Shown here: piece by piece, positions 39,478-50,774 of the stretch | Numbering within the stretch: the stretch's first letter is position 1 | How the letters are laid out: each line of letters begins with the position of its first letter | Assembly: GCA_903919455.1 (NCBI GenBank) | Contig: CAIXIJ010000018.1 | Span: 33,934 to 97,933 of the forward strand | Direction: 5' to 3' | Length of the DNA stretch: 64,000 nt | Origin: an uncultured Acidimicrobiaceae bacterium | Lineage (GTDB): Bacteria; Actinomycetota; Acidimicrobiia; Acidimicrobiales; Ilumatobacteraceae | Notes under the pieces: model-generated | Databases searched by the model: none | What the model saw: the letters and a program-made list of their open reading frames with translations, nothing else | Told to the model about the DNA's origin: nothing | Made by a program: the position numbers and the translations under genes

Positions 39478-40257
39478 ATGGCAATGGACCTGGCGATCGT
39501 CGAGGGTCGCCCCCTTCGGGGGTGGCACGGCAGAGTGCACCTCGCCCGCGCCCGCATGGGCCACTCGCACCTCACCGATCAGTCGGCCTTGCGTCTGGCG
39601 CACCCCCTGCGCCAGGCGCTCGCTGATCATTGGCGGATGCAGGGCGAACTCGAACACTCATCGGTCGTCGCCTACCAAGACCTGGCTCGGCGTCTGGCAC
39701 TACTCGAAGCGCCTGACGAACTGGTCCGCAGATCCTGGGTTGCGTCGCAGCACCAGACCACGCATGTCATGCGCTGTTTTGAACTCGCCGGCCGATACCT
39801 CGGACAGAGCATGCACCCCGGACGCTTGCGTCGCCCACTGCGCCTCCCACGGTCGCGTTCGGTCGAACTGCAGTCACTGGCCGCCGAAACACTGCTGGAC
39901 GGCGTGCTGCTGGAGAGCTACGCCGGGCGCATGGCACGCGCCCGCGCCGAGCGAGCATTCGACGCTCGCGCGCAGGAGGTACTCCAGATGATCGCCGCCA
40001 ACCAGGCGTCCAACACACTGCTTGGCCGCGAGGTGCTGGACTGGTGCCTCGATGTAGGCGGCCGACCGGTGCGGAGCGCCGTGCATGTCACCGCTGCCCG
40101 CCTACCGATCATCGGCCCGGCCATTGGAGTACCCGACGGCGTGGATCACCAAGTGCTCGCGGATCACGGCCTGTTCGACGCAGATCCGGAGCACACGGTG
40201 TTCCGTGAATTGTCGAGCGCTACCCGCCAGGTCTACCTGGCGCGCACTCAGCTGTAG
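39478..40257 (+). CDS. Ferritin-like-fold protein, possibly degenerate metal site
   Basis: Helical GELEHSSVVAYQDLARRL / HQTTHVMRCFELAGRYLG / ETLLDGVLLESYAGRMA / ANQASNTLLGREVLDWCLDVGGRPVRSAV. Confidence 0.6.
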   Translation: MAMDLAIVEGRPLRGWHGRVHLARARMGHSHLTDQSALRLAHPLRQALADHWRMQGELEHSSVVAYQDLARRLALLEAPDELVRRSWVASQHQTTHVMRCFELAGRYLGQSMHPGRLRRPLRLPRSRSVELQSLAAETLLDGVLLESYAGRMARARAERAFDARAQEVLQMIAANQASNTLLGREVLDWCLDVGGRPVRSAVHVTAARLPIIGPAIGVPDGVDHQVLADHGLFDADPEHTVFRELSSATRQVYLARTQL

Positions 40258-43069: not shown

Positions 43070-43191
43070 ACGCCCCTGCGCGGGTCAGCGGTTTCGCGGC
43101 GGGATGTTTCCCAAACCGGCTTCCCGGTGGTGGGGTTCCCGGTTTCCGGGAACCACACCACCGAGTTCGGCCACGCCCCTGCGCGGGTCAG
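43070..43191. repeat. 19-bp direct repeat (ACGCCCCTGCGCGGGTCAG) flanking a strong hairpin
   Basis: Identical copies at 43070-43088 and 43173-43191; hairpin GGTTCCCGG-TTT-CCGGGAACC at 43134-43154. Confidence 0.8.
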
Positions 43192-44003
43192 GCTTTGCGG
43201 TACTTCCGAATGGCGATGGGGGCCATCACGACCATGATGCCGAACGACCAGGCGAGGCTGCCCCACACATAGGCGCGAGGGTCGGTACCCAGCATCAGCG
43301 AACGCACCGCACGCACGGTGACGCTGACCGGCTGGCGCTCGGCCCACCAGCGCAGCCAACTCGGCATGGTGTCGACCGGCACGAAGGCGTTCGACGCAAA
43401 CACCAGCGGCGCAATGAACGGGAAGGCTGCAGCCTGCGCGGCCTCGGCGTTGGAGACGACCAGACCGACGATGGCGAAGATCCAGCACATCGACAGACCG
43501 AACAGCACCATCACGCCGATCGCCGCCACGTTCTCGAGGAATGAACCCGTCGGCCGGAAGTCGACGACGTACCCGACCGCGATCATCAGCGTGACGGTGA
43601 CGACGTTGCGCACGCTGTCGGCTGCCACTCGACCGCCCAGCACTGCGCTGCGCGCCATGGGCAGGCTCTTGAGCCGCTCGAGCAGACCTTTCTGGCGATC
43701 CTCAGCAAGACCCACCGCAGTGTTGATGGCGCCGAACACGACGGTCTGCACGAAGATGCCGGGCATCAGGTAGTTCACGTAGCTCACGCCACCGGGAGCC
43801 TGGATGGCCCCACCGAACACGTAGCGGAACATCAGCACGAAGATCAACGGCTGCACGAGGGCGAACACGAGTAACTCCGGCACGCGCCGGATGACCGTGA
43901 GGTTGCGCCACGTCATCGACAGGTTGTCGCGAAGGGCCCAGCCCACGCCGGCGCCCTTCTTGAGCGAGATCGGCGTGTGCGTGGGGGCGACCGTGGCGCT
44001 CAT
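43188..44003 (-). CDS. ABC-2 type transporter permease (DrrB-like)
   Basis: NLTVIRRVPELLVFALVQPLIFVLMFRYVFGGAI, AFPFIAPLVFASNAFVPVDTMPSWLRWWAERQPVSVTVRAVRSLMLG. Confidence 0.93.
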   Translation of the reverse strand: MSATVAPTHTPISLKKGAGVGWALRDNLSMTWRNLTVIRRVPELLVFALVQPLIFVLMFRYVFGGAIQAPGGVSYVNYLMPGIFVQTVVFGAINTAVGLAEDRQKGLLERLKSLPMARSAVLGGRVAADSVRNVVTVTLMIAVGYVVDFRPTGSFLENVAAIGVMVLFGLSMCWIFAIVGLVVSNAEAAQAAAFPFIAPLVFASNAFVPVDTMPSWLRWWAERQPVSVTVRAVRSLMLGTDPRAYVWGSLAWSFGIMVVMAPIAIRKYRKA

Positions 44004-44929
44004 TGCGCTGCTCCATTCGTGCCGGTGAGGGCGAGGAAGACATCGTCGAGAGTGGGTTCACGCAAGGCCACGTGCGCAGGCACGATGCCATGCTTGTCGA
44101 GGCGATTGAGGGCGTCGCGCAGGGTGGTAGGCCCATCGGCCATCACGGTGCGCACGATGGTGCTGGCAGTGGTGGTGGTGCCGAGCACCACTGCGGCTTC
44201 CTCCGCGGTAGCCGCCTTTGCGAACTCGAGCTCGATCACCGTGTCGCCGAGGCGGGCCTTCAGTTGTTTCGCTGTACCTTCGGCGGCAACCAAACCCTTG
44301 TCGATGACCACGATGTTGTCGGCAAGGCGATCGGCCTCTTCGAGGTACTGAGTGGTGAGCAGCACGGTGGTGCCGTCGGCCACGAGGGTTTCGATGACCT
44401 CCCACAGATCGAGGCGACTCGCAGGGTCGAGGCCAGTGGTGGGTTCGTCGAGGAACAACACCGGGGGTTGCGACACCAGGGCCGCACCAAGGTCCAGACG
44501 GCGGCGCATACCACCGGAGTAGGTGCGCACGGGACGGTCGCCGGCGTCGGAGAGACGGAACTGGTCGAGCAGAGCGGTTGCACGCGACCGGGCATCCGGC
44601 TTCGACATGTGGTTCAGGCGGCCGACGAGGTACAGGTTTTCGCGACCGGTGAGGTTCTCGTCGACCGCGGCGTACTGGCCTGCCAAGCCGATACTGCGGC
44701 GAACTGCCTGCGGATGTGCGTGCACGTCGAATCCGTTCACCACGCCACGACCCGACGTGGGAGGAGCGACGGTGGTGAGCATCCGCACCATGGTGGTCTT
44801 GCCAGCGCCATTGGCACCGAGCAGGCCCAGCACCGTGCCACGAGGCACGGCCAGCGAGATGTGGTCGACAGCCACCACCTCGTCGTATGTCTTGCGGAGT
44901 TCCTCGGCGAGGATCGCATTCTCTGTCAT
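44000..44929 (-). CDS. Daunorubicin-resistance-type ABC ATP-binding protein (DrrA-like)
   Basis: LGLLGANGAGKTTMVRMLTTVAPPTSGRGVVNGFDV, YSGGMRRRLDLGAALVSQPPVLFLDEPTTGLDPASR. Confidence 0.93.
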   Translation of the reverse strand: MTENAILAEELRKTYDEVVAVDHISLAVPRGTVLGLLGANGAGKTTMVRMLTTVAPPTSGRGVVNGFDVHAHPQAVRRSIGLAGQYAAVDENLTGRENLYLVGRLNHMSKPDARSRATALLDQFRLSDAGDRPVRTYSGGMRRRLDLGAALVSQPPVLFLDEPTTGLDPASRLDLWEVIETLVADGTTVLLTTQYLEEADRLADNIVVIDKGLVAAEGTAKQLKARLGDTVIELEFAKAATAEEAAVVLGTTTTASTIVRTVMADGPTTLRDALNRLDKHGIVPAHVALREPTLDDVFLALTGTNGAAQ

Positions 44930-44946
44930 GTTCTGGATCATACCCA

Positions 44947-44968
44947 ATAGTTGACTCTTATCAACTAT
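44947..44968. promoter_or_regulatory. MarR-type operator candidate between marR and drrAB
   Basis: Inverted repeat ATAGTTGA-CTCTTA-TCAACTAT plus further half-site GTCAAC at about 44977. Confidence 0.65.
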
Positions 44969-45004
44969 AGAGTGATGTCAACTTCTGGGCTACACTGTCC
45001 ACCA

Positions 45005-45463
45005 ATGGCCGACAGCGATCCGAAACTCGCCGACACTTGGGCGCGACTCTCGGGCCTGTTCTCGTCGCGACGCGACGCCCTGTTCGAGCAGCTCGCCGAA
45101 CTGGGGCTGAACCCGCCCCACGGTGTGGCGTTGATGTCGCTGCTGCACGCTGGCCCCACTCGCATGGGCGACATGGCCGAGACAATGGTGTGCGATGCCT
45201 CGTACATCACCGCTGTCGCTGATCGGCTGGAAGAGCTTGGGTTGGTCGAGCGGCGCAGCAGCCCCGACGACCGTCGGGCCAAGCAGCTGGCTCTCACTGC
45301 CAAAGGCGAGAAGGTGGCCCGCCGTCTCGACGCCGTGGTCACGGAGCCCCCGCCAGCAATGACAGCGCTGTCGAAGGCCGACCGCGACGCGTTGGCGCGC
45401 ATCGCCCGCAAGCTCGGCGAGCCCGACACCTCACGCTGGATGCCGCCCCGCTCCCTGCGCTGA
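45005..45463 (+). CDS. MarR family transcriptional regulator
   Basis: GDMAETMVCDASYITAVADRLEELGLVERRSSPDDRRAKQLALTAKGEKVA. Confidence 0.93.
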   Translation: MADSDPKLADTWARLSGLFSSRRDALFEQLAELGLNPPHGVALMSLLHAGPTRMGDMAETMVCDASYITAVADRLEELGLVERRSSPDDRRAKQLALTAKGEKVARRLDAVVTEPPPAMTALSKADRDALARIARKLGEPDTSRWMPPRSLR

Positions 45464-45520: not shown

Positions 45521-48445
45521 ATGGCGTTCCGGATCGTTCGACGCAAGCACCTCACCCCGAACACATTCCTGTGGGAAGTGGATGCACCCGATGTCGCCGC
45601 GTCCGCGCGTCCCGGCCAATTCGTGATGATTCGCCTCCACGACGGCGCCGAACGCATTCCTCTCACCATCGCCGACTTCGATCCTTCCAACGGCACAGTG
45701 ACGGTTGTGGTGCAGTCACTTGGCAGATCCACCGCCGAGATGCGCGACAGGTATCGCACGGGCGACACCTTCGCCGACTTCGTGGGCCCGCTGGGCATGC
45801 CCACCGTGATCGAGGCGGCGCCCGTCGGCGCGGACAGCCATGTGGTGTTCGTGGGGGGAGGACTCGGAGTGGCTCCCGTGTTTCCCCAACTTCGAGCGTT
45901 CAAGCAGGCTGGGCACCGGACGACGGCCATCGTCGGGTTCCGGAGCGCCGACCTTCGGTTCTGGACCGAGCAGCTCAACGAATGGGCCGACACGCTGATC
46001 GTGTGCACCGACGATGGCAGCGCAGGTCGATCCGGGTTGGTGACCGAGGCGCTCGCCGACGTGGTGGCCACCGATCGACCAGATCTGGTGGTGGCCATCG
46101 GGCCGATGGTGATGATGCGGGCTTGCGGTGAGGTGACCCGCTCTGCGGGCGTGCGCACCATGGTGAGCCTGAACACGATCATGGTGGACGGCACTGGGAT
46201 GTGCGGTTCGTGTCGCGTCACCGTGGATGGCGTCACCCGCTTCGCCTGCGTGGACGGCCCCGACTTCGATGCCCACGCCGTGGACTTCGATGAACTGGTC
46301 GCTCGCCAGCGTCGTTTCGTACACGAAGAGCAAGCCGCCGCTGCCGACTACGAGCACCGTTGCCAGGTGGAGCAGACGCTGTTCGTGGACGGCAAGCGCA
46401 CGTACAAGAAGCTGCGCGAGATCGAGCCAACCAAGGTGCCAATGCCCGAGCGCGACCCGGAGGTGCGGTCGCACACGTTCGATGAAGTGTCGCTGGGCTA
46501 CAGCCTCAGCGAAGCCATGCGCGAGGCAGAGCGATGCCTGCAGTGCAGCAGGCCAACCTGCATCAGCGGTTGCCCCGTCAGCATCGACATCCCCCGGTTC
46601 ATTCGCCATCTTCTGGTGAAGGACGTCGATGGCGCGTTAGGCGTGATCCGCGAAGCCAGCATCCTTCCTTCGGTCTGCGGGCGAGTGTGCCCGCAGGAGA
46701 CCCAGTGCGAGAGCCAGTGCGTGATCGCTCGCAAGATGGAACCGGTTGCCATCGGCCGCCTCGAACGGTTCGTTGGCGATCACGGGAAGGTGGCCACACC
46801 GTCACTGTCACCGTCGCTGGGCAAACGAGTCGCCGTGGTGGGTTCGGGGCCTGCGGGCCTCGCCTGCGCCGCCGACCTCGCACGCGGTGGAGCGGATGTG
46901 ACGGTGCTCGAGGCGCTTCACGTGACCGGTGGCGTGTTGCGGTACGGCATCCCATCGTTCCGGCTGCCGCGCGAGATCATCGATCGCGAAGTGGCCGGCC
47001 TGCTGGATCTCGGCGTGACCATCGAGACCGACAAGGTGGTGGGCCGAACCTTCACCGTTGACGACCTGCTGCACTCGCGTGGCTACGACGCGGTGTTTCT
47101 CGGTGTCGGTGCCGGCGCACCATCATTCCTGGGCATCCCGGGAGAGAACGCCGGACGGGTCATCAGCGCCAACGAGTTCCTCACCCGTGTGAACCTGATG
47201 GGCGGCGACCGCTTCCCCGACATCGACACACCCGTCGGCATCGGCACGAACGTGGTGGTCGTCGGCGCCGGCAACACGGCGATGGACTGCCTGCGGGTTG
47301 CCCGACGCCTCGGCGCCGAAGTGCGCTGCGTGTATCGGCGCACCAAGGCCGAAGCGCCCGCGCGCATCGAGGAACTGCACCACGCGGAGCAAGAAGGCAT
47401 CGGCTTCCTCTGGCTGCACAGCCCGGTGAAGGTACTCACCGACGACCATGGCGATGTACGCGCCCTGCTGGTGGAACGAATGGAACTCGGCGAGCCAGAC
47501 GAACTCGGTCGCCGCAAGCCGGTTGGCACCGGCGAGCATGCGGAGGTGATCTGCGACACGGTGATCGTGGCGCTGGGGACCAACCCGAGCCCGATCGTGA
47601 CTCGCAACACCGCAGGACTGGAACTCGACTCCCGCGGTTACGTGGCCGCCGATGCGGACACGCAGGCAACCAGCATCCCCGGTGTATTCGCGGGCGGCGA
47701 CATCGTCACCGGTGGCGCCACGGTGATCCTCGCGATGGGTGCTGGCCGCCGCGCCGCTGCGTCGATCCTGGACTACCTGGGTGGCGGCACCATGCCCGCT
47801 GCCATCGACCATCTCGAACATCGGTGCCCCCGGTGCCATCGGCCGGTGGAAGCTGGCGACGACGACGGCATCTGCTGCGCGGATGCCGTGGTGGCATGGA
47901 AGTGCAACGACTGCGCCAAGCGCAGCGAGGGCTTTGCCTTCCCCTACGGGCGCTGCCCGGCATGCGCAGGAACGCTGTCGCTCGTCGACCCCGCCTCGGC
48001 CGTGCCCGACGAGGCGATGGAAGCGGTGCGCACGGCATTCGAGATCGAACTCGGTGGGCGCGACTTCTACGTGGCGGCAGCGAAGCACACCAGCGACGAA
48101 CAGTTGCACGACATGTTCCAGCGCCTTGCCGAGATGGAGCGGGAGCACATCGACACGTTGGTGCAGCGCTATCACCTCGCGCCACCCGACGACGCCAGTG
48201 GCGATCTGAACCCCGGCGCCTTGCAGGCCGGCGCTCAGCGCACCCCCAACGACCCGGCAGATCTGTTGGCGTTGGCCCTCACGTTGGAGCAGCGTGCCGA
48301 GGCCTTCTTCCGCACGCACACCGACGATGCATCGCCGGCGGCACGAGAGCTCTACCGGGAACTCGCGGCAGAGGAGGGCGAACATATCGCCCTCCTCACC
48401 ACCGAGTTGTCGGCCCTGCGCAGCAACCGACGCGGGCTGCTCTAG
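45521..48445 (+). CDS. Fusion: ferredoxin-NADP reductase (NfnA-like) + glutamate-synthase small-subunit-like (NfnB/GltD) + zinc ribbon + rubrerythrin-like ferritin domain
   Basis: DGTGMCGSCRVTV...FACVDGP ([2Fe-2S]); CLQCSRPTCISGCP and CGRVCPQETQCESQC ([4Fe-4S]); VVGSGPAGLACAADLA, VVVGAGNTAMDCLRVARRLGA; CPRC/CNDC/CPAC; EIELGGRDFY...EMEREH and LEQRAEAFF...EEGEH. Confidence 0.92.
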   Translation: MAFRIVRRKHLTPNTFLWEVDAPDVAASARPGQFVMIRLHDGAERIPLTIADFDPSNGTVTVVVQSLGRSTAEMRDRYRTGDTFADFVGPLGMPTVIEAAPVGADSHVVFVGGGLGVAPVFPQLRAFKQAGHRTTAIVGFRSADLRFWTEQLNEWADTLIVCTDDGSAGRSGLVTEALADVVATDRPDLVVAIGPMVMMRACGEVTRSAGVRTMVSLNTIMVDGTGMCGSCRVTVDGVTRFACVDGPDFDAHAVDFDELVARQRRFVHEEQAAAADYEHRCQVEQTLFVDGKRTYKKLREIEPTKVPMPERDPEVRSHTFDEVSLGYSLSEAMREAERCLQCSRPTCISGCPVSIDIPRFIRHLLVKDVDGALGVIREASILPSVCGRVCPQETQCESQCVIARKMEPVAIGRLERFVGDHGKVATPSLSPSLGKRVAVVGSGPAGLACAADLARGGADVTVLEALHVTGGVLRYGIPSFRLPREIIDREVAGLLDLGVTIETDKVVGRTFTVDDLLHSRGYDAVFLGVGAGAPSFLGIPGENAGRVISANEFLTRVNLMGGDRFPDIDTPVGIGTNVVVVGAGNTAMDCLRVARRLGAEVRCVYRRTKAEAPARIEELHHAEQEGIGFLWLHSPVKVLTDDHGDVRALLVERMELGEPDELGRRKPVGTGEHAEVICDTVIVALGTNPSPIVTRNTAGLELDSRGYVAADADTQATSIPGVFAGGDIVTGGATVILAMGAGRRAAASILDYLGGGTMPAAIDHLEHRCPRCHRPVEAGDDDGICCADAVVAWKCNDCAKRSEGFAFPYGRCPACAGTLSLVDPASAVPDEAMEAVRTAFEIELGGRDFYVAAAKHTSDEQLHDMFQRLAEMEREHIDTLVQRYHLAPPDDASGDLNPGALQAGAQRTPNDPADLLALALTLEQRAEAFFRTHTDDASPAARELYRELAAEEGEHIALLTTELSALRSNRRGLL

Positions 48446-48446
48446 A

Positions 48447-50774
48447 TCAGGGAGTGGTGGTGAACTGCTGCACCGCGGTGGCAGCGCCAAAGCCATCGGC
48501 GTTGTGTGCCCGCACCTTCACCTCATAGGTCTGAGCCGGTACGAGATCTGGAATCGTGGCGGCGAGGCATGGCCCGGCACAGGAGACATCCAGATGTGGC
48601 CAGAGGGATTCGATCTTGTCCTGGATCCAGGGAACAAAGGTGCTGACTCGGGCATAGATACCCGGGAAGGTCGCATCAGCGCAGCCATCGCCGAAGCTGG
48701 TAACGCCGGCGAGCTTCGGCACGCCGAGCACATCGACCACCAGTGGGCCACCGCTGTCGCCCTGGCAGGTGTCGGTGCCGCCACCCACCACGCCTGCGCA
48801 CAGCATGGTGGAGGGGATGAACCCGGCCCCGTAGCTGGCGCAGTTGCCGGTCGCACCAGGCTCGGCCAATACCTGCACCGTGGCCTTCTGCAGGACCGCC
48901 GGCACCGAACCTCCAGATGTCAAGGTGCCCCAGCCGCTGATGATGGCGTTCGTGGTGGCCACCGGCCCGGCTGGCTGGTCGTAAAGACCGACGACGGCGA
49001 CGTTCGAACTCAGCGTGACCGGTTTGGCCAAGTGCAACAGCGCAACATCATTCGACTTACTGGACGGGCTCCAGCCCGGGTGGGTGAACACCTTGTCGAC
49101 GGCGAAACCGTTCAGGGCGTTCATGTCGTTCTGATCGGAGATACCGACGTGCACGGTGAAACGGCCGGCGGTGTACTTCACATCATTCTCGTCGTAGGTG
49201 CAATGCGCAGCGGTGAGCACCCACTGGACGTCGATGAGCGAGCCACCGCACTCCAGGCTGCCATCGAGGCTGACCCGCGCCTGCCAAGGGGTCGCGCTAA
49301 TCGGCGAGTTCGCACCACCGACGATGCGCGGCTGCACTGTGATCGAGCGGGGTGTGATGGTGGGTCGATAGAACACTCGGTACGAATCGATGGGGCCGCT
49401 TGCATTGTCGCCAGCGGCGAGCCACGACAGATCCAGCGAGGTGCTGCCCGGAGTGCCGGCCAGCCCTGTCGGCGCCATCGGCGTGGTGAATGGGCGCAAT
49501 GGCAACGACGCCACCGACCACGGTCCCACGCCCGCAAACGACTTGGCTCGTACTCGCACCTTGATCACCGAGGCTGGGGTGAGACCCGTGACTACGGCGT
49601 TGCGCACGGCGGACACACCGTCGGCGAAGCGGGTGTAGCTGACGCCATTGTTCGTCGAGACGTCGAGCTCATAGTCCGTGATGGGCTTTGAGCCGGCCTT
49701 TGCGGGCAACGACCACTGAACCGTCACGCGCCGGTTGCCCGATGTGCCGGTGGGCCTTCCGGGAGCGGTTGGCAGCACACCTGCGGCCAGCGCGGTACGC
49801 GATGCCGAAGCCGACGTGTACAGGCCGGTTCCAAGCCTGTTCTTGGCGGCGACGCGAACGATGTACTTCTTGCCGGGCACCAACCCTGTGACGCGGGCCA
49901 TCCGCGCCGTCGACACGCCGTCGGCGAACGTCTTCCACGACACGGGCGAGGCCAGCGAGTACTGCACCACGTAGTCCGAGACCGGCCAGAGGGAGGCGCT
50001 CGGCGCGGCCCACGACAGGTCGATCGAGGCAGGGGCCGCGGTGGCCGTGGGCGCACCGGGCTTGTTCGGCCAGGCGCGGGTACTCGCGACCGTCACCCAA
50101 CCGGCGTTCGGAGCGACATCGGCCGCATAACTCGTGCCGACGGAGTACCGACTCATCGCGTACACCTTCACCGAACGCGGGTTGCCCAGACACGACAGCG
50201 GCGCATAGACCCCGTACGACTTCGCGAGGGAATCGAAGAGTGGGATCGCGTTGCACACATGCGCGCCGGACACGGCGTTGTACACATCGCCGTAGACGAT
50301 GCCCAGGTAGTTGGAAATCTCGAGAGCAAAGTCCTCGAAGCCATCCGCATTCGCGTCGACGAGCCAATCCACAAAGGTGGCGGGGGCCTGCAATGCAGGG
50401 GTCTGCCATGCGGAGTTCGTAGGACGGATCCAAGCGGCGACCGCGGCCGACACGAACAGCGAGGGCACACCCGGTTCGTTGCTCGTGGCCACCCTGACAC
50501 CCGTGATGTCGGCTTGGCCGTACTTCTTCGGAGCCGTATCGCCCGTGGGGTCGGTTGCCCCGAACGGACTCCAGGCGACCTTCGACAACGCTGCGCCGAT
50601 GCGAGCGTTGCGCAGCGCAATGGAGCGATCCGTGGCAGACCGTTGCGTACGACTGATCGAGAACGACCCGCGCTGCACGCCAGGCGCGCCAGCAGAGGCA
50701 CCGGAGGTTTGCACCACACCGCCAACTGTGACTGCCACAATTGTGGTGATTCCGATCAGTTTCCTGATCCGCAT
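48447..50774 (-). CDS. Secreted multi-FnIII protein with trypsin-like S1 protease domain
   Basis: RIVGG, LTAAHC, NDVALLHL, CQGDSGGPL; at least three FnIII-like domains; N-terminal signal. Confidence 0.93.
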   Translation of the reverse strand: MRIRKLIGITTIVAVTVGGVVQTSGASAGAPGVQRGSFSISRTQRSATDRSIALRNARIGAALSKVAWSPFGATDPTGDTAPKKYGQADITGVRVATSNEPGVPSLFVSAAVAAWIRPTNSAWQTPALQAPATFVDWLVDANADGFEDFALEISNYLGIVYGDVYNAVSGAHVCNAIPLFDSLAKSYGVYAPLSCLGNPRSVKVYAMSRYSVGTSYAADVAPNAGWVTVASTRAWPNKPGAPTATAAPASIDLSWAAPSASLWPVSDYVVQYSLASPVSWKTFADGVSTARMARVTGLVPGKKYIVRVAAKNRLGTGLYTSASASRTALAAGVLPTAPGRPTGTSGNRRVTVQWSLPAKAGSKPITDYELDVSTNNGVSYTRFADGVSAVRNAVVTGLTPASVIKVRVRAKSFAGVGPWSVASLPLRPFTTPMAPTGLAGTPGSTSLDLSWLAAGDNASGPIDSYRVFYRPTITPRSITVQPRIVGGANSPISATPWQARVSLDGSLECGGSLIDVQWVLTAAHCTYDENDVKYTAGRFTVHVGISDQNDMNALNGFAVDKVFTHPGWSPSSKSNDVALLHLAKPVTLSSNVAVVGLYDQPAGPVATTNAIISGWGTLTSGGSVPAVLQKATVQVLAEPGATGNCASYGAGFIPSTMLCAGVVGGGTDTCQGDSGGPLVVDVLGVPKLAGVTSFGDGCADATFPGIYARVSTFVPWIQDKIESLWPHLDVSCAGPCLAATIPDLVPAQTYEVKVRAHNADGFGAATAVQQFTTTP

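Follow-up and report, generated by a model that had tools for sequence, protein, structure and literature searches.

A conserved single-chain fusion of Nfn, an eight-cysteine ribbon and a ferritin-like diiron domain: a candidate NAD(P)H:peroxide or O2 oxidoreductase

The window analysed here, a 64,000-nucleotide stretch of DNA from an uncultured Acidimicrobiaceae bacterium, encodes a 974-residue protein in which an NfnA-like module, an NfnB/GltD-like module, an eight-Cys ribbon and a ferritin-like diiron domain follow one another on one chain. This protein is a real, conserved fusion and a divergent member of a catalogued family; comparison with homologous sequences supports its four-part architecture, its Nfn identity and its intact diiron motif. 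By analogy with characterized systems, we propose, as the best reading though one about as likely as not, that it may on its own oxidize NAD(P)H at the expense of peroxide and/or O2, with a complete Nfn unit coupled to a reverse-rubrerythrin-like terminal module. The relevant features of the window are as follows.

44951-45463, + strand: MarR-family regulator upstream of the fusion (Pfam MarR 1.6e-14; tblastn synteny)
45521-48445, + strand: the whole ORF of the Nfn-ribbon-ferritin fusion, 974 aa (ORF translation; homologues)
45521-46360, + strand: NfnA-like FNR module, residues 1-280, with FAD, NAD(H) and [2Fe-2S] (PRK06222; 5jca_S)
46187-46249, + strand: [2Fe-2S] motif DGTGMCGSCR-x10-CV, ligands D223, C228, C231 and C243 (invariant in 54/54 Nfn rows; motif in PMC6405883)
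46418-47791, + strand: NfnB/GltD-like module, residues 300-757, with two [4Fe-4S], FAD and NADP(H) (Fer4_20, Pyr_redox_2; 4ylf_B)
46535-46765, + strand: [4Fe-4S] ligand region, C339, C342, C347, C351, C390, C396, C400 and E415 (alignment; PMC9503767)
46961-46963, + strand: R481, matching R187 of T. maritima NfnB (alignment)
47825-47965, + strand: eight-Cys ribbon, residues 769-815 (Cys invariance; weak RUBY_RBDX match)
48002-48421, + strand: ferritin-like four-helix diiron domain, residues 828-967 (Pfam Rubrerythrin, AlphaFold2, Foldseek, ligand invariance)

A sequence-only reading had placed an NfnA-like part with a [2Fe-2S] motif at residues 1-280 and a GltD/NfnB part at residues 300-757, and both assignments are borne out. 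Residues 3-284 match the NfnA-type family NCBIfam PRK06222 with 362.9 bits against a cutoff of 220, Pfam assigns DHODB_Fe-S to residues 218-255, and in the PDB the module matches the NfnI subunit beta 5jca_S (E=1e-81); the Asp and three Cys of the NfnA signature (DGTGMCGxCR-x10-CV) are all retained. In the second module, Fer4_20 (residues 317-422), Pyr_redox_2 (436-741) and TIGR01316 (gltA; residues 313-753) match together with NfnB 4ylf_B from the PDB (E=1.7e-150), and the cluster cysteines are kept. Its two [4Fe-4S] motifs, RCLQCSRPTCISGCPV and GRVCPQETQC...GRLER, include Glu as the non-Cys ligand: E415 corresponds in the alignment to E126 of P. furiosus NfnL, a Glu that ligates the proximal cluster (PMC9503767). 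R187 of T. maritima NfnB, the counterpart of R481, is hydrogen-bonded to N5 of the bifurcating FAD (PMC6405883). The Asp and three Cys, the [4Fe-4S] cysteines, E415 and R481 are invariant in the 28 NfnABs linked to a ribbon-ferritin module, with one row gapped at C386-C400. As a separate observation, a fused homologue at L206:4400-7609 (-) lacks the stretch with the second [4Fe-4S] motif and has a truncated Fer4_20 match, reflecting decay or an assembly error.

Because TIGR01316 is matched above its cutoff (537.5 versus 471.75 bits), the protein might be taken, for instance by automatic annotation as NADPH-dependent glutamate synthase, for an ordinary relative of GltD, the small subunit of that enzyme, whose C-terminal ribbon would hold zinc for structural reasons and take no part in electron transfer. 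We regard this as extremely improbable, given that an NfnA half with an Asp-ligated [2Fe-2S] motif is fused to it, that a separate GltD-like ORF (36% identity) lies elsewhere in the genome, and that no GltB was recognized among the neighbours examined.

Characterized Nfn enzymes are usually NADPH-forming transhydrogenases. A rather unlikely alternative to the peroxide/O2 reductase is a normal bifurcating transhydrogenase working with NADPH, NADH and ferredoxin. In O2-exposed bacteria, its ribbon-ferritin part would sense or scavenge O2 or peroxide locally and so shield the O2-sensitive Fe-S/flavin chemistry, being fed by leakage and not serving as the main outlet for electrons. The hallmarks of bifurcation are indeed kept, among them the unusual Asp and Glu ligands of the clusters and the N5 Arg, and relatives of ferredoxin-dependent 2-oxoacid oxidoreductases (POR_N) occur in 12/12 carrier genomes. 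Since heme-copper oxidases are likewise encoded in carriers, the genome of the window included, the carriers probably both meet O2 and make reduced ferredoxin. However, the same ligands are found in Nfn homologues of unassigned activity, so that they are not decisive, and sequence alone does not tell the function of an Nfn homologue (PMC6405883). Moreover, the other Nfns of the genus (in G001 and G004) do without a ribbon-ferritin module.

The four Cys pairs ascribed to the ribbon were located at the claimed positions (Cys 769, 772, 785, 786, 795, 798, 812 and 815), and among 52 distinct ribbon-ferritin sequences none of the eight residues varies at any site covered (50-51 sequences). The first half has the invariant pattern CX2C-X12-CC, of the desulforedoxin spacing type, and shows no significant profile match to desulforedoxin. 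The second half of what had been labelled a 'zinc ribbon', W-K/R-C-X2-C ... C-P-X-C (WKCX2C-X13-CPXC), resembles the short-spaced rubredoxin domain of rubrerythrins. RUBY_RBDX matches the ribbon at 3.8e-5 and 2.9e-4 in two relatives and at 0.26 in the window protein, all below the gathering score, and a profile search of the ribbon against the PDB gave no significant match. We infer that the ribbon binds Fe and serves as a relay; it could bind Zn.

In the C-terminal domain, the motifs FEIEL (840), MEREH (872), LEQRAE (922) and EEGEH (951) are in place as predicted, and the six diiron ligands E843, E873, H876, E923, E952 and H955 are likewise invariant at every site covered (49-51 distinct ribbon-ferritin sequences). 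Pfam assigns Rubrerythrin to residues 835-882 (2.9e-11, above the gathering score), which is also the best family in 14/14 members scanned, and the four-helix bundle, the two ExxH motifs and the Glu of helices A and C agree with rubrerythrins. An AlphaFold2 model of residues 755-974 displays four long helices (mean pLDDT 72.8, the helices mostly at 80-92 and the ribbon weaker), for which Foldseek retrieves ferritin, bacterioferritin and COG1633 folds, whereas the pTM of 0.36 of the full-length model is too low for reading cofactor distances. A decayed or chance ferritin domain is ruled out, as the same domain order recurs in many genomes and the ligands do not vary.

In D. vulgaris rubrerythrin, E97, the Glu three residues past the helix C Glu, is the extra seventh ligand. 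The equivalent position of the fusion, placed at 926 by aligning the helix C motif by hand, is Ala in 41/49 and Thr in 8/49 sequences and never Glu. The ligand set is therefore of the 4Glu/2His kind, as in bacterioferritin, and not that of a seven-ligand rubrerythrin. Outright identity of the ferritin part with rubrerythrin was dropped for this reason; what stands of the original 'rubrerythrin' assignment is a four-helix diiron domain of that Pfam family lacking the extra Glu.

The absence of E97 and the bacterioferritin-like 4Glu/2His set would suit a ferroxidase or iron-handling centre of the bacterioferritin/EncB type. The Nfn half would then serve iron homeostasis, either by re-reducing Fe(III) to Fe(II) or by holding the site in its reduced state. 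The EncB and MbfA families are weakly similar, the Foldseek matches are best with ferritin and bacterioferritin folds, and relatives fused to Fur point in the same direction. We nevertheless judge this explanation clearly unlikely: no cage, encapsulin or iron-transport genes were seen beside the fusion gene, a ferritin subunit of 974 residues would be unusual, and an invariant eight-Cys ribbon fits an electron relay. It is in these Fur-fused proteins, from the Acidobacteriota sample, that the ferritin domain has its nearest further relatives, at weaker similarity. They (L170-L178, for example L170:1447-2484 (-) and L175:1129-2067 (+)) join a Fur/PerR-like regulator to a rubrerythrin-like diiron domain; two were scanned by Pfam, and the others (313-409 aa) share the ferritin match. 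They may be metal- or peroxide-sensing repressors with a diiron site of their own.

Diiron oxygenases typically come with a reductase of their own, either fused to them or encoded by the next gene. This pattern is shared by the fusion and its split relatives, and two relatives show weak similarity to COQ7, so that the diiron site might activate O2 for a specific oxidation (oxygenase- or desaturase-like), with Nfn and ribbon as its reductase. We hold this to be decidedly improbable, since conserved neighbours from a substrate pathway are lacking and Rubrerythrin is the best family in every member scanned.

That the fusion might be an assembly artefact is excluded by full-length homologues in many genomes: it is carried by same-genus genomes, by Alphaproteobacteria and Acidobacteriota MAGs and by an Anaeromyxobacter-like clade that includes closed genomes. 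Among 14 other genomes of its own genus, 9 encode the full-length chain on one ORF; in G011 it is interrupted by contig ends and in G013 it is in pieces. A member of another genus of the same family (G031) carries it too. Two genomes of the genus, G001 (L147) and G004 (L146), have no fusion and instead encode a distant two-ORF NfnAB; two distant Nfn lineages thus exist within this genus. In wider samples, the ribbon-ferritin module was found in 2/299 genomes in the own-order sample (one genus only), 2/387 in the Alphaproteobacteria (the class of L008) and 29/197 in the Myxococcales sample (the phylum of L013), where 27/29 lie in long open frames of 771-1524 aa. In the Acidobacteriota (the phylum of L014), 10 to 11 strong matches, fused or split, were found among 247.

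Linkage was counted by homology scans of fetched loci, with strong matches defined as those over 100 bits and the fragment L156 left out. Every strong ribbon-ferritin match with readable flanks is either fused to NfnAB or located on the same strand directly 3' of a fused nfnAB gene. In the split loci (L011, L012, L014, L200 and L207-L213), the two genes are 2 to 59 nt apart where measurable; they may overlap slightly in L011 and are further apart in L209. This constant association argues that the ribbon-ferritin part works with the Nfn reductase. NfnABs of the same clade also occur without it: none is adjacent in L132/L219, and the Accumulibacter genome of L027 has none.

A maximum-likelihood tree built from 54 NfnAB rows places the linked NfnABs in a single group (support 100/99), together with the unlinked L027 and L132. 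Within this group, one subgroup unites 17 fused and 3 split rows (100/99), and the remaining split rows form another (100/98); the own-genus rows cluster with the Anaeromyxobacter-like rows (100/99). As judged from this tree, the Nfn half of the window protein and those of its PRK12775 relatives appear to share common descent. The fused rows of the Acidobacteriota sample fall in the fused clade, apart from the split rows of the same sample, and horizontal transfer of the fusion is therefore likely. The tree requires the fused state to have changed three times or more, and the single branch formed by the own-family rows is consistent with one acquisition.

The four-part architecture is already catalogued, not CHARACTERISED. 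The model NCBIfam NF009413/PRK12775 has the architecture, domain order and length class of the window protein (1006 positions). It bears the name 'putative trifunctional 2-polyprenylphenol hydroxylase/glutamate synthase subunit beta/ferritin domain-containing protein', which conveys no tested function and mentions neither Nfn nor the ribbon. The window protein scores 1485.5 bits, below the cutoff of 1895, as do L008 (1810) and L205 from the Acidobacteriota sample (1629); two Anaeromyxobacter-like relatives (2190.8 and 2100.1) and L009 from a proteobacterial MAG (1983.5) exceed it. By NCBI cutoffs the fusion thus passes TIGR01316 but not PRK12775, so that automatic annotation would probably label it 'glutamate synthase' and hide its architecture. 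The initial reader knew of no characterized enzyme with this layout; none was found by us, although annotated homologues do exist in PRK12775. Literature searches on Nfn combined with rubrerythrin, on the trifunctional family name and on Fur-rubrerythrin fusions returned no paper on the architecture. A survey of Nfn homologues distinguishes four patterns, A-D (PMC6405883); in its text, rubrerythrin and ferritin have zero occurrences, and the fusion is not among these patterns.

The best solved Nfn relatives of the window protein are 4ylf, 5jca and 5vj7. It shares the order NfnA-NfnB and every cofactor ligand with the fused 'pattern B' Nfn, whereas the ribbon and diiron module are additional. 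In reverse rubrerythrins, the rubredoxin-type domain lies N-terminal to the four-helix diiron domain, matching the order of ribbon and diiron bundle in the fusion. Compared with C. difficile revRbr1/2, the fusion has its reductase on the same chain or in the next gene, possesses an eight-Cys ribbon and has no counterpart of the extra rubrerythrin Glu. In a layout that the ribbon of the fusion may resemble, desulforubrerythrin from Campylobacter jejuni combines desulforedoxin-like and rubredoxin-like centres with a diiron bundle; the fusion differs in having its two Cys4 motifs ahead of the bundle, and desulforubrerythrin has no Nfn half. Redox data on desulforubrerythrin are cited in PMC7482061, which describes NADH-dependent reduction of H2O2 and O2 by revRbr1/2 by way of a rubredoxin reductase. 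An analogue in mode of action is the class F flavodiiron protein, a single-chain NADH:O2 reductase (C. difficile FDP_F) that unites an NADH reductase, a short-spaced rubredoxin and an O2-reducing diiron core (PMC6033852), although its diiron fold (metallo-beta-lactamase) and its reductase (NROR) are unrelated to those of the fusion.

The proposed peroxide/O2 reductase builds on four modules observed on one chain, on the conservation of their ligands and on the gene linkage of the two halves. NADPH at the NfnB site and/or NADH at the NfnA site would be oxidized at the FADs. From the Fe-S clusters of Nfn, electrons would enter the ribbon, with its one or two putative Fe(Cys)4 centres, and would then reach the diiron site, where H2O2 (or O2) would be reduced to water. 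Fe in the ribbon, electron transfer between the halves, its direction, the substrate and the choice of nucleotide are the parts of this model that go beyond the observations. The retained Nfn ligands, eight Cys and six diiron ligands argue for this reading together with the constant linkage and the single supported clade of the linked NfnABs, as do the revRbr and FDP_F precedents, the Fur-fused relatives, the probable encounter with O2 and the physiology of A. dehalogenans 2CP-C, which reportedly has four rubrerythrin homologues and is without catalase, superoxide reductase and cytochrome c peroxidase (PMC2330069). It is weakened by the absence of E97, by a ribbon that possibly holds Zn, by the lack of oxidative-stress neighbours and by the usual role of Nfns in forming NADPH.

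With respect to these neighbours, the loci compared revealed no conserved functional partner and no oxidative-stress genes beside the fusion gene; they were read by homology scans, as simple longest-ORF calling is unreliable in GC-rich DNA. Upstream, positions 43188-45463 of the window hold a divergent DrrAB-like ABC-2 transporter pair and the MarR gene. Synteny of the ABC pair extends across the genus; the MarR gene, which probably belongs with it, is present in the window and in L140, L141, L142 and L143; tblastn did not find it in L137, L138, L139 and L145. Elsewhere in the window, positions 48447-50774 (-) encode a 775-aa chain with a trypsin domain and fibronectin type III repeats, and positions 39478-40257 (+) hold a 259-aa ORF that has helical stretches bearing Glu and His and matches nothing in Pfam at E 0.01.

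A further variant, which we consider very improbable, is bifurcation in which the built-in diiron site hands the high-potential electrons to peroxide or O2 as acceptor, such that NADPH oxidation drives ferredoxin reduction on one chain. If true, this would amount to electron bifurcation powered by peroxide or O2, by which an aerobe or facultative anaerobe makes low-potential ferredoxin. For a family so far known by its database name only, the tie of a complete Nfn reductase to a conserved ribbon/diiron module, through fusion or gene adjacency, replaces a misleading label ('polyprenylphenol hydroxylase / glutamate synthase') with a testable hypothesis of an NAD(P)H peroxidase/O2 reductase. The fusion occurs in apparently cultured, sequenced strains of Anaeromyxobacter, a genus whose representative 2CP-C is reported to lack catalase, and it offers a natural test case for the coexistence of bifurcating-type flavoenzymes with oxygen.
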